Shown: in pieces, positions 466 to 17,001 of the stretch
How the letters are laid out: the number at the start of each line of letters is the position of its first letter
Numbering within the stretch: position 1 is the stretch's first letter
Virus record (IMG/VR): IMGVR_UViG_3300023179_000622
Location: 1 to 20,252 of that record
Length of the DNA: 20,252 bases
From: a virus
Reading direction: 5' to 3' (one strand)
Position numbers and translations under genes: made by a program
The notes under the pieces: model-generated
The model's input: the letters and a program-made list of their open reading frames with translations, nothing else
Told to the model about the DNA's origin: nothing
Databases searched by the model: none

Positions 466-516
466 TTAGTTAACTGTCTAAGAGTATATTATATACCCAA
501 ACTGATTTATTGTCAA
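466..516 (-). promoter_or_regulatory. Sigma70-like promoter cassette, copy 1
   Basis: On the minus strand TTGACA (516-511) and TATAAT (493-488) are separated by exactly 17 bp, followed by a conserved leader CTTAGACAGTTAACTAA ending at 466, then the SD and ATG of the 78-aa gene. The same 51-bp block recurs at 707-757 and 1933-1983. The -35 box lies 2 bp after the stop codon of the upstream gene. Confidence 0.9.
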
Positions 517-518
517 AT

Positions 519-695
519 TTAGGCTTTCAGCATTTGATCAACAATTGTATCAGTCCCGTAGATGCGATCAAACTTTTCCCAAGCTTCATCCTCATCCTTA
601 GCAAAGATCAGGATGATAGCATCACGCCCAACAGGGTCGTAGGTGTAAAATTTGAACTTAATTTCACCTTCGAAACCCTTTGCTTTTACGATCAT
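519..695 (-). CDS. Small acidic hypothetical protein (58 aa)
   Basis: A short reading frame, ATG at 695 to TAA at 519, coding for a 58-aa protein starting MIVKAKGFEGEIKFKFYTYD and containing an acidic segment (AKDEDEAWEKFDR). It fits exactly between promoter copies 2 and 1: its start follows the conserved leader and a GGGG stretch, and its stop abuts the next -35 box. Codon use matches its neighbours. The alternating pattern suggests two beta strands followed by a helix. I do not recognise the family. The opposite-strand frame over this region has no ribosome-binding site and is not credible. Confidence 0.8.
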   Translation of the reverse strand: MIVKAKGFEGEIKFKFYTYDPVGRDAIILIFAKDEDEAWEKFDRIYGTDTIVDQMLKA

Positions 696-706
696 TTTTT
701 GCCCCG

Positions 707-757
707 TTAGTTAACTGTCTAAGTATGTATTATATACCCAAAACGATTTATTGTCAA
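707..757 (-). promoter_or_regulatory. Sigma70-like promoter cassette, copy 2
   Basis: TTGACA (757-752), 17-bp spacer, TATAAT (734-729), then the leader ACTTAGACAGTTAACTAA ending at 707. It is the same length as copies 1 and 3 and closest to copy 1. It lies between the TGA of the 85-aa gene, 3 bp upstream, and the start of the 58-aa gene. Confidence 0.9.
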
Positions 758-760
758 CTT

Positions 761-1018
761 TCATTTCTCTAAAATGTTTACCAATGTGGTAGCAATTTCT
801 TTTGCCATTTGTTTGGCTGTCTCATTGATTTCATTTTTGCTGCCTCGAATGTTGGCAATCATAAGCCACAAGTCAGCATTTTCTTCACAGTATCCAATGA
901 ACCATTTCCAATTAAAGTTACTACCGCGAAACTTGGGGTTATTGAACATTGCCAGCTGCACTGCGACATTGGCATACATGCAGTTTGCAATTTTAAGTCT
1001 AGTCTTATCTGAAATCAT
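761..1018 (-). CDS. Small hypothetical protein (85 aa)
   Basis: An ORF starting MISDKTRLKIANCMYANVAV. It is last in a chain of minus-strand genes linked by ATGA overlaps: its ATG overlaps the TGA of the upstream gene at 1015-1018, implying translational coupling. The protein looks mostly helical with a Trp-rich centre (FNWKWFIGYCEENADLW). Its TGA lies 3 bp before the next promoter's -35 box. No known domain is recognised. Confidence 0.75.
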   Translation of the reverse strand: MISDKTRLKIANCMYANVAVQLAMFNNPKFRGSNFNWKWFIGYCEENADLWLMIANIRGSKNEINETAKQMAKEIATTLVNILEK

Positions 1019-1251
1019 TCTTCAACTCCAAAATGTTTTTTCAGTACTTGTTGAAAGTTAGTCATTGACATTGAACAATAAGCGGCATGAACACTGCTTA
1101 GTGAATCATATCGCTCTTCTTCCTTTACTGCTAGATCAATACATTCCCGAATCAATAGCTCGGCGAACTTTTCCAGTTCATGACTAGAAATTAGATAGTT
1201 AGGTCCAGTTAGGCCTTGCCGTTCAGCAAGTTCACGAATTCGTTCATTCAT
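1015..1251 (-). CDS. Small phage protein of the MNERI...EKFAEL...HFGVE family (78 aa)
   Basis: The protein begins MNERIRELAERQGLTGPN, has a central EKFAELLIRECIDLA helix and ends KKHFGVEE. This layout (MNERIKELAEQ start, KFAEL(I/V) core, HFGVE end) is very common among small uncharacterised proteins of tailed phages; I know of no assigned function. A related gene lies immediately upstream (1248-1484) and a more distant one at 12843-13109. ATGA overlaps on both sides (1015-1018 and 1248-1251) indicate translational coupling. Confidence 0.85.
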   Translation of the reverse strand: MNERIRELAERQGLTGPNYLISSHELEKFAELLIRECIDLAVKEEERYDSLSSVHAAYCSMSMTNFQQVLKKHFGVEE

Positions 1252-1484
1252 TTTTCAAATCCGAAATATTCTTTAATACGATTTTGTACCTGTGATGCTG
1301 CTTCATAACTCAAGTCAGAATTTTCATCACGCAGTACATCACGCACACATTCTGTAGCATGACCGATAATCAACTCGGCGAACTTTTCCTTTACAGGGTT
1401 AGGAACAATGATAGTGGCATATTTGTTTTCTGCCTTGAATTCTTCGAGAGCCTGTTCAAAAAGTTCTTTAAGTCGTTTGTTCAT
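1248..1484 (-). CDS. Small phage protein, paralogue of the next gene (78 aa)
   Basis: It starts MNKRLKELFEQALEEFKAEN, has EKFAELIIGHATECVRDVL in the middle and ends IKEYFGFEK. It has the same length and same three landmarks as the adjacent 1015-1251 product, so the two probably arose by tandem duplication or are two acquired members of one family. It is linked by 4-bp ATGA overlaps to genes on both sides. Function unknown; probably a cytoplasmic helical protein. Confidence 0.85.
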   Translation of the reverse strand: MNKRLKELFEQALEEFKAENKYATIIVPNPVKEKFAELIIGHATECVRDVLRDENSDLSYEAASQVQNRIKEYFGFEK

Positions 1485-1690
1485 ACCAACTCTCCGGTTT
1501 CATCGTTAACACATCCTACATATACTGCCAGCAATGCTTCTTTATTTTGCTGAGCCCTAGTATTGCGTATTTCAACCCAAGAATGGGCTTCGAACGGCGA
1601 TTCAAATTCACGTTCTTCGAGAACTTTATGATCGTTTAAATGTCCACCGACTATTGGGTGAACTTGAACAATGTGAAAGAACTGAGTCAT
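1481..1690 (-). CDS. Small hypothetical protein (69 aa)
   Basis: It starts MTQFFHIVQVHPIVGGHLND and contains FESPFEAHSWVEIRN. Its TGA overlaps the next ATG in an ATGA. Ribosome binding upstream is weak, so it may rely on translation of the preceding 73-aa gene, which ends 10 bp before its start. The composition suggests a small mixed alpha/beta fold. It is the second gene of the run that starts at promoter cassette copy 3. I do not recognise it. Confidence 0.7.
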   Translation of the reverse strand: MTQFFHIVQVHPIVGGHLNDHKVLEEREFESPFEAHSWVEIRNTRAQQNKEALLAVYVGCVNDETGELV

Positions 1691-1700
1691 TTGTTTCTAC

Positions 1701-1922
1701 TTACCAAGCCTGACGGTTGATGGTTTCAAGTGCTTGACCAGAATCTTTCAGCTTGAAAGCATCTCCAGTTTTTCCCCAACGTTGAACTTCCTCCAGAAGA
1801 ACTTCCAGAGCAGTTTCTTTGTCCATAGAACTGAACACAAGTGACCAAGCACCATTGGGGTTTCGTTCGACATCATTCAGTTGACGCATGACACGATACT
1901 GATAAACTTTCTCTTGATACAT
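1701..1922 (-). CDS. Small hypothetical protein (73 aa), first gene after promoter copy 3
   Basis: I start it at the ATG at 1922 (MYQEKVYQYRVMRQLND), because a GGAG lies 7 nt upstream; the longer open frame up to 1955 would begin inside the promoter -10 region and cannot be translated from that transcript. The protein shows an N-terminal beta-like stretch and a helix (KETALEVLLEEVQRW). It leads the coupled run of five small genes down to 761. Function unknown. Confidence 0.75.
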   Translation of the reverse strand: MYQEKVYQYRVMRQLNDVERNPNGAWSLVFSSMDKETALEVLLEEVQRWGKTGDAFKLKDSGQALETINRQAW

Positions 1923-1932
1923 GTTCACTCCG

Positions 1933-1983
1933 TTAGTTAACTGTCTAAGTATCAATTATATACTAGAACCGATTATTTGTCAA
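1933..1983 (-). promoter_or_regulatory. Sigma70-like promoter cassette, copy 3
   Basis: TTGACA (1983-1978), 17-bp spacer, TATAAT (1960-1955), leader ACTTAGACAGTTAACTAA ending at 1933. The -35 hexamer contains the TGA stop codon (1982-1980) of the upstream SWIM gene. A perfect 17-bp dyad (1976-1992, TTTGTCAAATTGACAAA on plus) spans the -35 box and could be an operator; only this copy has it. Confidence 0.9.
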
Positions 1984-2901: not shown

Positions 2902-2930
2902 ATTATAACTTATCAGAGATTAATAGTCAA
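2902..2930 (-). promoter_or_regulatory. Sigma70-like promoter for the RelE-like pair
   Basis: TTGACT (2930-2925), 17-bp spacer, TATAAT (2907-2902) on the minus strand, about 28 bp before the ATG of the 61-aa gene. It gives a normal-length leader that carries the SD. Confidence 0.8.
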
Positions 2931-3481: not shown

Positions 3482-3775
3482 ATGTTTAAAAAAATCAAGG
3501 AGTTTTTATTTGGTAAACCTATTGAAGTTACGCCGATCGCGGCACCTTATAAAATACCTGAACCTCAGCAACCCTTATCTGTTACCACCAAAGTTGAGCC
3601 TGTAGTATCAGCGATCAAGGAAGTAGCCAAGAAGAAGGCCTCTAAGCCTTCAGTGAAGCCTGCAAATGTAGCTGTTAAAAAGTCGACACCACGCACAGCC
3701 AAAACTACTAAAGCAAAACCAGTGGCAGCAAAAAAAGCATCAACCCCCGCAAAACCAAAATCAAAGAAGATTTAA
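3482..3775 (+). CDS. Lysine/alanine-rich histone-tail-like protein (97 aa)
   Basis: After an amphipathic start (MFKKIKEFLFGKP) and a Pro-rich stretch, residues from about 45 to the end are dominated by Lys, Ala, Pro, Ser and Thr with repeating K(K)A/KP steps (VKPANVAVKKSTPRTAKTTK, PVAAKKASTPAKPKSKKI). This composition is like histone H1 or AlgP-type tails and predicts a disordered, strongly basic nucleic-acid-binding segment. It has an excellent SD (AAGGAGAT) and is one of only three plus-strand genes here. It converges with and overlaps the UV endonuclease gene by 15 bp. A role in DNA compaction or protein-RNA binding is inferred from composition alone. Confidence 0.75.
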   Translation: MFKKIKEFLFGKPIEVTPIAAPYKIPEPQQPLSVTTKVEPVVSAIKEVAKKKASKPSVKPANVAVKKSTPRTAKTTKAKPVAAKKASTPAKPKSKKI

Positions 3776-4792
3776 TTGTTTAGCTTGCTTGGCTAGTTCA
3801 AAACTAGCCAAGTTTTTTGCCTTACTTTCGGCTACGATATCAAAATTTTCTAGGAAAGTCAATGCCCAATCATTGACTGCGGTATTCCAATAAAAATCAC
3901 TATGTGCTCGAATTTTTGACTTTTTATGCCCGCTTTTTAATAAAGCTTGCAGATCGGGCTTGTGAGTTGTAGAATGACCAATTAATAAATCCTCTCGGCT
4001 TACTGAATAGTGAATCGCTGGTCTAACCCCTCTCCAACTATCAATAATCCTTTTTACACGATCATCGGCAGCGTCAATATATTCTCCCGTCATCACCCAA
4101 TGGTGATGAATGTCTAAAACTAATGCTAGGTCTTTGGCGAGCTCTAAGCTTGCACCGATCCCCCAGTTGATTTCGTCGTTTTCAATGGTAATGCAATTCC
4201 TTGCTTCCGGGCTTAATCTCGGAAGTACAGCTCGAATACCAGCTGGGCCAGCACGGCCACTGATATGTACATTGATTTTAAAATCTTGAAATTTTTGCCC
4301 AAACCCCATCCATCGTGCCATATCAGTATGATATTCGAATTCTTCAATACTGCGGTCTACAATATCTGAGGATTCGCTAGCTAAAACAACGAATTGCCCT
4401 GGATGAAAACTAAGCCTGACATCTTTGCTTTTAGCAAGATCACCGATTTGTGCAAAGTGCTTTTGGCAATATGTGACGACATCGGGTCGTCTCCAAAAAT
4501 ATTTCCAATCTTCATGTGTATAAGCTGGCAATATGTCTGAACCTAGTCTAACCATTTTTAGATGAGGTTCTAATTCAGATACTTTAGAAACCAATCTACG
4601 AATAGCTTCAATGTTGAACGTCATTAGATCCCAGAGCTTTTCTTCAGCCACTGAAACAGTCTGACGATTCAACCAAGAAATTGTAGTGCTGGCAGTGTTG
4701 TACTTTTTGCAGTCATCTTTGGCTTTAATTCCGTTAATTTGATCACTGAAATCAATCCATTTGCAGCAAAAACCCAATCGTTTTTTGTTCAT
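3761..4792 (-). CDS. uvsE: UV-damage endonuclease (UvsE/UVDE family)
   Basis: A 343-aa protein, close to the size of bacterial UvsE. UVDE is a TIM-barrel, metal-dependent enzyme that nicks DNA 5' of UV photoproducts and other lesions, starting an excision pathway independent of UvrABC. Visible family motifs are RLGSD (82-86), LSFHPGQFVVLAS (around 127-139), ITIENDE (201-207) and LDIHHH (226-231); the His, Glu and Asp residues are the expected metal ligands. The first residues (KKRLGFCCKWIDFS) match the family's GYCC-like start. A sigma70-like promoter (4818-4846) drives it directly. T4 uses the unrelated DenV for the same task. Confidence 0.93.
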   Translation of the reverse strand: MNKKRLGFCCKWIDFSDQINGIKAKDDCKKYNTASTTISWLNRQTVSVAEEKLWDLMTFNIEAIRRLVSKVSELEPHLKMVRLGSDILPAYTHEDWKYFWRRPDVVTYCQKHFAQIGDLAKSKDVRLSFHPGQFVVLASESSDIVDRSIEEFEYHTDMARWMGFGQKFQDFKINVHISGRAGPAGIRAVLPRLSPEARNCITIENDEINWGIGASLELAKDLALVLDIHHHWVMTGEYIDAADDRVKRIIDSWRGVRPAIHYSVSREDLLIGHSTTHKPDLQALLKSGHKKSKIRAHSDFYWNTAVNDWALTFLENFDIVAESKAKNLASFELAKQAKQLNLL

Positions 4793-4817: not shown

Positions 4818-4846
4818 ATTATAACACAAAACTACATTTATGTCAA
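4818..4846 (-). promoter_or_regulatory. Sigma70-like promoter for the UV endonuclease
   Basis: TTGACA (4846-4841), 17-bp spacer, TATAAT (4823-4818), 25 bp before the ATG. The TGA stop of the upstream gene (4845-4843) is nested inside the -35 hexamer. Confidence 0.85.
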
Positions 4847-15054: not shown

Positions 15055-17001
15055 TTACAATGTACCGGTGGGTTTGATCCCTGCTTCGCCAAATAATTGG
15101 TTATTTTTGGCCTGTGCCAGAATGCTTTTAATGGTATCGCCTGCTTGATTGTCTTGGCACATTCCATACAACATGTAATCTGTGCCTATATTGTTGGGGT
15201 CAGCCCCAAATTCTGGCAACGCACTTACGAAGCTAAAAATTTGATTGTTATCTGGAAACGAATCAATAGTTATGTTTGCCTTATTGTAATTATTAAATTC
15301 ATAATACAATTGTTGACAAACATATGCATAATTATCATTGATCTGTTTAACAATCACTGGAATATTTCCAGTTTTGTCCGACACCAATTTATTTAGCAAA
15401 GTATAGTATTCTGCCTTTTTGGAAGTTAACAAATCTTTCCAATAATTCACATTTCTATTGGCCTCAGCTTCTTCAGCTGCGCTCAGTGAGAATTTTCCAT
15501 CTGCTCTACTGATTTCGGTGAGAACGCTTCTTATTTGTGGCCCATAGGAGGTTGCAAATAGTTGCTCCATGCCATTGTTGACTAAACTCATGGGGTCGTT
15601 CAAATAACCCGAGGCTGCTCCGATGACGTTGATCAATGAAATAGGTGAGTTTGAGGATGTCTGTGGTAGATAAGTTCTCAATGCAGCTATCAGACCAGGT
15701 GTTAACATATTTGTTGAACTTGCCAGTCCTTCTACTCGTGTACCCACATCGCTTTGAACACTGTCAATTAGTGCAGCCAATTCTAATCCTGTGCTCAATG
15801 AGAAATTGGGAGCTTTTTCAAACAAATCTAAACCCATGTCCGCAAAAGTGGAAAACTCACTGTCATTGCTTAACCCGCTGGCTCGTTCAATACTGATATA
15901 ATCCAGTGGGTTTAACATATTTGGAATCGTGCTACCCATAACGGATTGTATAGTGACTAAATCTGCCGGATTAGTTATGGCCTGTAATGTCTGTGTAATA
16001 ATGGCAGTATAAGTTGTATTGTAAATGTCTGAAAAATTTACTCCAGCTTGCTCCAGGGTATTGGATAAACCACCCACTGCACCAAGGCCTGCATCTAACA
16101 TAACTTTAGCCACTGAGTTTGATGTTCCAAATTTTCCATCAGGTATACAGGTAACCATACGACCTAGATTTTTAATGGCCTGTGTTAGAGCCTTACCCGT
16201 CTTGTACTTTCCCATGTTTTGGGAAATTAGACTGGAATAATTAGAAGCACCATAATAGGGAAAGTTTGTGGTTTCCGCTGCTTGTAATGCAGCCAAATAA
16301 TCATTGACGGTATATACCCAACCCTGTGCTTGATAAAATACATTAATAAAATGAAAAGTATCCCAAACGTTGCTACCAGTTAGTCTTATTAATTGTAAAT
16401 CCATGTAATAGTTAAAATTACCTGGCATTGTAGTATACTGAGCAGGCATAACTCCTGTCAGCGCCGGCATAGCACTGTCGGCACCGAAAGTCATAGCTCT
16501 GGGATCTTGCCAATATTCTCGAAAATATCCAGTTAAATAGGGAATAAATTTAGGTGAACTGCCATCTGGCCAAGTTGTAATTGTTACGGTAGCGCCATCT
16601 TCATTGACAACAGTTCTGACAGTGGGTGTAAGTGGTAATCCTGTAACAGAGTCCACTGCCAATCTTGCACCAGTATTTAATTGCATGGCCACTAAATTGC
16701 CTTGTGCACTTAGACTGCCAGAATAGACTCCACTGATAGAACTAGCTGTGGGTAAATATTCACTACCATCTAGGTACTCTCCCCAACCACCACCATTAAA
16801 GGTAGCAGGAAAACAACCTGATACCGCTCCAGACAATGCAGCTGCCAGAGTACAGCTTGTCGCTTCTCCCGAACCCTGGCCTGACCCTGGATCACCCGAA
16901 CCACCGGCTGCACCCCCACTACCCTCGGCGCCACCGCCACTTCCATCAGGAAATCGTAAATGATAACCCAGTGACTTTCTTTTAACTTCTAATAAGTTCA
17001 T
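15055..17001 (-). CDS. Large probable virion protein with Gly/Ser-rich N-terminus (648 aa)
   Basis: After 17 residues (MNLLEVKRKSLGYHLRF) comes a Gly/Ser-rich flexible stretch to about residue 46, then Cys-containing ASCTLAAALSGAVSGCF-like sequence and a long mixed domain with many Asn, Ser, Tyr and Thr (FNGGGWGEYLDGSEYLPTAS, MDLQLIRLTGSNVWDTFHFI). The C-terminal part is helical (EAEANRNVNYWKDLLTSKKA). No enzyme motif or membrane segment is seen. Composition, size and position directly after a PAAR spike-tip gene support a tail- or baseplate-associated structural protein, but I do not recognise the family. It has the weakest SD of this cluster (GAG 5 nt upstream). Confidence 0.7.
   Translation of the reverse strand: MNLLEVKRKSLGYHLRFPDGSGGGAEGSGGAAGGSGDPGSGQGSGEATSCTLAAALSGAVSGCFPATFNGGGWGEYLDGSEYLPTASSISGVYSGSLSAQGNLVAMQLNTGARLAVDSVTGLPLTPTVRTVVNEDGATVTITTWPDGSSPKFIPYLTGYFREYWQDPRAMTFGADSAMPALTGVMPAQYTTMPGNFNYYMDLQLIRLTGSNVWDTFHFINVFYQAQGWVYTVNDYLAALQAAETTNFPYYGASNYSSLISQNMGKYKTGKALTQAIKNLGRMVTCIPDGKFGTSNSVAKVMLDAGLGAVGGLSNTLEQAGVNFSDIYNTTYTAIITQTLQAITNPADLVTIQSVMGSTIPNMLNPLDYISIERASGLSNDSEFSTFADMGLDLFEKAPNFSLSTGLELAALIDSVQSDVGTRVEGLASSTNMLTPGLIAALRTYLPQTSSNSPISLINVIGAASGYLNDPMSLVNNGMEQLFATSYGPQIRSVLTEISRADGKFSLSAAEEAEANRNVNYWKDLLTSKKAEYYTLLNKLVSDKTGNIPVIVKQINDNYAYVCQQLYYEFNNYNKANITIDSFPDNNQIFSFVSALPEFGADPNNIGTDYMLYGMCQDNQAGDTIKSILAQAKNNQLFGEAGIKPTGTL

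Follow-up and report, generated by a model that had tools for sequence, protein, structure and literature searches.

Three near-identical 51-nt blocks on the minus strand of the analysed window (the whole 20,252-base IMG/VR virus record IMGVR_UViG_3300023179_000622, from an uncultured T4-like phage) belong to a promoter-plus-leader unit, here designated family A, which recurs in hundreds of copies across large uncultured phages, indicating a real, lineage-wide early-gene expression cassette. The unit is probably best described as a sigma70 early promoter joined to a selected initial-transcribed or 5'-UTR segment, the latter probably aiding promoter escape and translation.

Each block in the window consists of TTGACA-N17-TATAAT-N5-CTTAGACAGTTAACTAA, with the 17-nt leader CTTAGACAGTTAACTAA identical in all three. 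Pairwise identities between the blocks were 46/51, 41/51 and 43/51, and the -35 and -10 hexamers matched the sigma70 consensus at 12 of 12 positions with a spacing of 17 nt in 3/3 blocks, confirming the initial annotation of three near-identical 51-bp blocks with TTGACA and TATAAT boxes, 17-bp spacing and a fixed leader. The conservation of the spacer adjoining the -35 (AATAAAT..TTTGGGTA) and the recurrence of the unit in many other phages had been missed in that annotation. Cassette 1 (466-516) comprises the -35 TTGACA at 511-516, the 17-nt spacer, the -10 TATAAT at 488-493 and the leader at 466-482, with a transcription start predicted at ~481 (+/-2, minus strand) from the distance to the -10. 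It is followed by a Shine-Dalgarno (SD) sequence AGGA at 462-465 and small gene 1 (78 aa; ATG at 456, alternative GTG at 459), which together occupy 220-465 on the same strand; a 96% identical relative of this gene in IMGVR_UViG_3300023179_003731 is preceded by the same cassette. Cassette 2 (707-757, minus strand; -35 at 752-757, -10 at 729-734, leader at 707-723) precedes an SD-like CGGGG at 702-706 and small gene 2 (58 aa, ATG at 695; 519-706 with the SD-like element, minus strand). Cassette 3 (1933-1983, minus strand; -35 at 1978-1983, -10 at 1955-1960, leader at 1933-1949) precedes the SD CGGAG at 1928-1932 and small gene 3 (73 aa, ATG at 1922; 1701-1932 with the SD, minus strand), after which more small genes follow down to 761. 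Immediately after the blocks, AGGAC, CGGGG or CGGAG thus leads into a start codon. Outside the blocks, identity fell to chance, with 12-16 of 60 positions identical in the 60 nt upstream and 13-17 of 54 in the 54 nt downstream, and the three downstream proteins (78, 58 and 73 aa) are unrelated, their alignment being no better than that of shuffles. The leader 17-mer, allowing up to 3 mismatches, had an expected count of 0.09 in the window but was seen three times, a number that 0 of 100 shuffles reached.

The window further encodes UvdE, an exonuclease-like protein, Hsp20, a cell-wall hydrolase, NrdB and, as judged by sequence, a glutaredoxin-like protein; its NrdB is 61% identical to that of Xanthomonas phage X1 and ~54% identical to those of Menderavirus-type Stenotrophomonas phages. 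An additional perfect TTGACA-17-TATAAT site with a TG extension, overlooked in the earlier annotation, was located at 4818-4846 (minus strand), where it carries another leader (ATAGAATATATCAAAATTCTAG) and stands upstream of a UvdE-like gene (3761-4792). At 2902-2930 (minus strand), a TTGACT-17-TATAAT site is followed by CTTAGAAGGATAAATA, which opens like the leader and then diverges, before a 61-aa ORF. A 648-aa protein encoded at 15055-17001 (minus strand) has a Gly/Ser-rich N-terminal stretch and gave 0 Pfam matches. The T4 late promoter TATAAATA was matched once in the window against 2.15 matches expected, and an Rfam search returned no match.

A lack of further copies had been named in the initial annotation as grounds for abandoning its proposal; exact copies of the leader were present in 35 further IMG/VR loci, 34 of which had the copy exactly 5 nt past the -10 of a TTGACA-N17 promoter, with an SD and a start codon after it. 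A search of IMG/VR with the promoter alone identified at least 120 loci. A wider set of 524 non-redundant promoters was assembled from 97 locus groups sharing less than 10% of their 25-mers, the loci compared being contig fragments, and yielded the core consensus TTGACA[AT]TAAAT-n3-TTTGGGTA-TATAAT-n5-C[TA]TARACAGTTAACTAAAGGA and the full consensus TTGACA[AT]TAAAT[GC][GA]nTTTGGGTATATAATA[CG]AnTC[TA]TA[GA]ACAGTTAACTAAAGGA. The leader core, defined as the pattern YWTRNNCAGT, was found in 45% of 420 promoters and in 61 of 84 locus groups among loci fetched by promoter alone, and hence under no selection on the leader. Other leader classes (CTTATTCAGT, CTTAATCAGT, TATTGATTGA, CTTAGATTGA and CATACACTGA) occupied the same place, and single loci can hold several classes together. 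An exact search for the alternative leader TATTGATTGATTAAAGGA with a 4-nt gap, rather than the 5-nt gap of the family, gave 0 matches. Among cultured phages, neither the window nor the 56-nt unit matched anything in the phage collection, and the exact TTGACA-N17-TATAAT sites of PA5oct and Salmonella SD-1_S14 are without the family A spacer. A host origin was also considered and rejected: in a collection of genomes from 84,980 species, the relaxed leader pattern gave 0 hits and the extended promoter a single hit (a Clostridia MAG).

A second promoter family, B, was identified with the consensus GGTTGACC-AAAATTCCC-n-ATTTGC-TATAAT-n5-YATAGTAAnTAAAAAGGAG (loci L276-L355 and L356-L434; for example L277:9402-9440 and L351:14743-15120). 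Scanning for its leader as n5-[CT]ATAGTAAnTAAAAAGGAG after TATAAT, and thus with selection on YATAG, returned at least 120 IMG/VR loci. Family B shares with family A the geometry, the [CT]ATAG opening of the leader and its occurrence in relatives of the window's NrdB, but differs in the -35, the spacer and the second half of the leader; some intermediates between the two exist (CATAGACAG). Of at least 598 loci with relatives of the window's NrdB, 80 were retained; most were without family A, and some carried family B.

The position of the leader core was measured relative to both the promoter and the start codon. Its offset from the -10 was fixed in 239 of 245 cases, whereas its distance to the ATG varied, mostly from 21 to 28, which places the core with transcription initiation or with the 5' end of the transcript and not with the ribosome site. 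In 99 representative loci, 123 of the 128 cores away from contig edges had a promoter and 5 did not; two of these five follow degraded promoters, and the reversed-sequence control gave one. An antisense leader copy acting as a small RNA was discarded as a candidate, since the 5 promoterless cores were the only ones in 0.96 Mb and none was suggestive. A sigma70 start, predicted ~7 nt after the -10, fits the C[TA]T with which the leader opens at offsets 5-7; further downstream, 436 of 516 cases have an SD and a start codon, typically 32-34 nt past the -10. The information content at offsets 5-14 past the -10 was 7.8 bits in family A (630 promoters, partly selected on the leader) and 6.0 bits in promoter-selected loci, in which the leader was unselected, compared with 1.2 bits at other TATAAT sites of the same loci. 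With 43% A, the leader is A-rich, and it folds less than shuffled sequences do; the palindrome AGTTAACT is destroyed in common variants, so that a conserved palindrome or hairpin was rejected.

An open reading frame with a median length of 89 aa follows 439 of the 524 cassettes, and the encoded proteins form 131 sequence families, of which 69 have a single member. Nine common downstream families were tested, of which four matched PHROGs, the best match always being of unknown function; one of the four also weakly resembles clamp-loader ATPases. The sites in the large records, the longest of which has 524,565 bases, are arranged in tandem arrays on both strands at intervals of ~300 bases, and the reversed pattern gave zero matches. 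A T4-like Gp23 capsid gene was found in 8 of 18 large records and was full-length in seven, in which the nearest listed site lay 33-85 kb from the Gp23 gene. The sites therefore share with T4-type early promoters a setting in T4-like phages, before early or novel small genes and away from late genes. The largest record, G001 (IMGVR_UViG_3300027749_002876; 524,565 bases), is T4-like and carries Gp23 together with 33 exact promoter sites, which form arrays on both strands; its capsid protein shares 64-67% identity with the counterparts in PA5oct, Vibrio phage 2.275.O and Sinorhizobium phage Phosso. From this layout of arrays and capsid genes, read according to T4 practice (PMC1524935, PMC2988021), the cassette-driven genes would be expressed early. 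For a large group of uncultured T4-like and jumbo phages, the cassette makes early genes easy to trace by sequence, each match leading to a small, mostly unknown protein that is likely made first in infection.

In the preferred reading, each block would be a self-contained early-expression unit for the unmodified host sigma70 RNA polymerase, in which near-consensus -35 and -10 elements and the conserved spacer would direct a start at or beside C[TA]T, at offset 5-7 past the -10, and a conserved, unstructured, A-rich 5'-UTR of ~25 nt would follow, ending in the SD sequence. An initial stretch of ~10 transcribed bases (C[TA]TARACAGT) would most likely have a role in initiation, allowing faster promoter escape and a uniform 5' end, in the manner of the downstream region of T5 early promoters, and the second half of the leader (TTAACTAAAGGA) would most likely hold the ribosome site open. 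Against this reading, a general demand for AT-rich initial transcripts would not account for letters as specific as ACAGT; the other letters at the same offsets in family B, T5 and RB49 and the association between spacer type and leader class likewise count against it. The roles raised in the initial annotation, namely an operator, a binding site for a phage regulator or an mRNA-stability element, could each apply, though only speculatively. A leader that acts mainly after transcription, as a 5'-UTR tag raising translation or protecting early mRNA with the promoter merely its constant partner, is a possibility to which we give limited credence. It would account for the A-richness, the weak folding and the terminal SD, and a uniform 5' end would suit a stability element, the leader being placed at the 5' end in nearly all cases; however, the conserved core is locked to the -10 and not to the SD or ATG, and was not found at promoterless internal ribosome sites, where a pure translation enhancer would be expected, so that a pure ribosome-site element is disfavoured. 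It is doubtful that the leader is instead a binding site, either a DNA operator at the start or an RNA site, through which a phage regulator shuts off or times the early genes. The lineage-specific letters (ACAGT) fixed over the start site keep such a regulator among the candidates, and one switch could be common to many promoters of a genome, but no candidate for it was found, and the variability of the leader (55% of family A promoters have other leaders, with several classes in one locus) together with the lack of a dyad kept across variants disfavours a classic operator. More broadly, and only tentatively, the leader might be the target of a putative phage factor, one that binds RNA or DNA or modifies the start site and in this way marks or switches early transcript sets; if so, whole early sets would be switched at once across widespread uncultured T4-like and jumbo phages.

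Two further explanations concern how the cassettes came to be alike and what their arrays are for. The initial annotation had suggested duplication of a portable early-expression module. Portability was borne out by the reuse of the unit before the 131 families of small proteins, but recent duplication inside the genome was not: leader identity was 0.477 within a locus and 0.458 between unrelated groups, with upstream and downstream flanks at ~0.27 in both. Copies from the same locus should be clearly more alike if duplication or gene conversion were the cause, and it is therefore extremely improbable that recent copying of one module explains the conservation of a functionless leader, an outcome that the same annotation had regarded as fatal to its proposal. 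The tandem clustering in ~300-bp steps and the association between spacer type and leader class would suit such copying, and the association indicates that part of the pattern reflects joint inheritance; the random flanks do not suit it, nor does the occurrence of the leader behind a different promoter type, TTGACC-AAAAACACCCAATTTGC-TATAAT, in L277, a locus with an NrdB that shares 86% identity with the window's. It is also very unlikely that the cassettes belong to the T4-type PeSL class (promoter plus stem-loop terminator), with recombination between cassettes as their main role. The same dense arrays stand ahead of small unknown genes in T4-like phages, a T-tailed, terminator-like hairpin lies just upstream in 5.7% of family A (0.2% in shuffles), and one downstream protein family can have several leader types, which is compatible with cassette recombination. 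However, the stem-loop joined to the promoter that defines a PeSL was not found in family A, where promoter-internal stems occurred at the level of shuffled sequences (0.07 vs 0.07), whereas they were enriched in RB49 (0.49 vs 0.16 shuffled).

The RB49 and phi1 PeSL cassettes (Arbiol 2010 and Comeau 2014, as cited in PMC4503421) and T4-type early promoters resemble family A in that strong early promoters form arrays ahead of small novel genes in T4-like genomes, and RB49 (NC_005066; L249-L256) also has a conserved transcribed leader, CACnCATCGAAACGA...AAGGAGAATC (also given as CACnCATCGAAACGA..AAGGAGAATCAAA). In contrast to these PeSLs, the family A unit is without a stem-loop, has another spacer and leader and was found only in uncultured phages. 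Early-type promoters were extracted from the sequences of T5 (n=21), RB49 (n=35) and T4 (n=16), and the downstream information over 10 positions from offset 5 amounted to 10.7 bits in T5, 7.6 in RB49 and 2.9 in T4. T5 early promoters of the N25 class are, like family A, of sigma70 type with a conserved transcribed segment extending from the start to the SD, an ATG ~30 nt past the -10 and a conservation peak at offsets 5-12; in family A this segment is locked to the -10, from which the start is predicted. T5 differs in its TTGCTT-type -35 and its leader (C/T)ATAAATTnATGAGAGGA, and the ATAAATT leader was not found in family A. The function of the T5 downstream region has been measured, exchange of +3 to +20 of N25 cutting productive RNA ~10-fold (PMC12464699), whereas the role of the family A leader is read from its sequence. 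The earlier claim that the conserved leader exceeds the requirements of RNA polymerase holds in that conservation extends past the -35 and -10 boxes, but is too strong, because the equivalent transcribed segment of N25 changes output. The exact letters are not required by RNA polymerase in general, since family B, T5 and RB49 differ at the same offsets, the leader opening being (C/T)ATAAATTnATGAGAGGA in T5, CATCnAAAC in RB49 and C[TA]TARACAGTTAA in family A. A conserved initial transcribed segment is thus an architecture shared by the three in different letters, and the cassette appears to be of a type already known from T5 and RB49 with a new sequence; family A may work like the T5 N25 class without being a member of it. 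Segments of this kind have been studied in detail in T5, and their recurrence at matching offsets in several phage groups makes the role of the first transcribed bases comparable between lineages.
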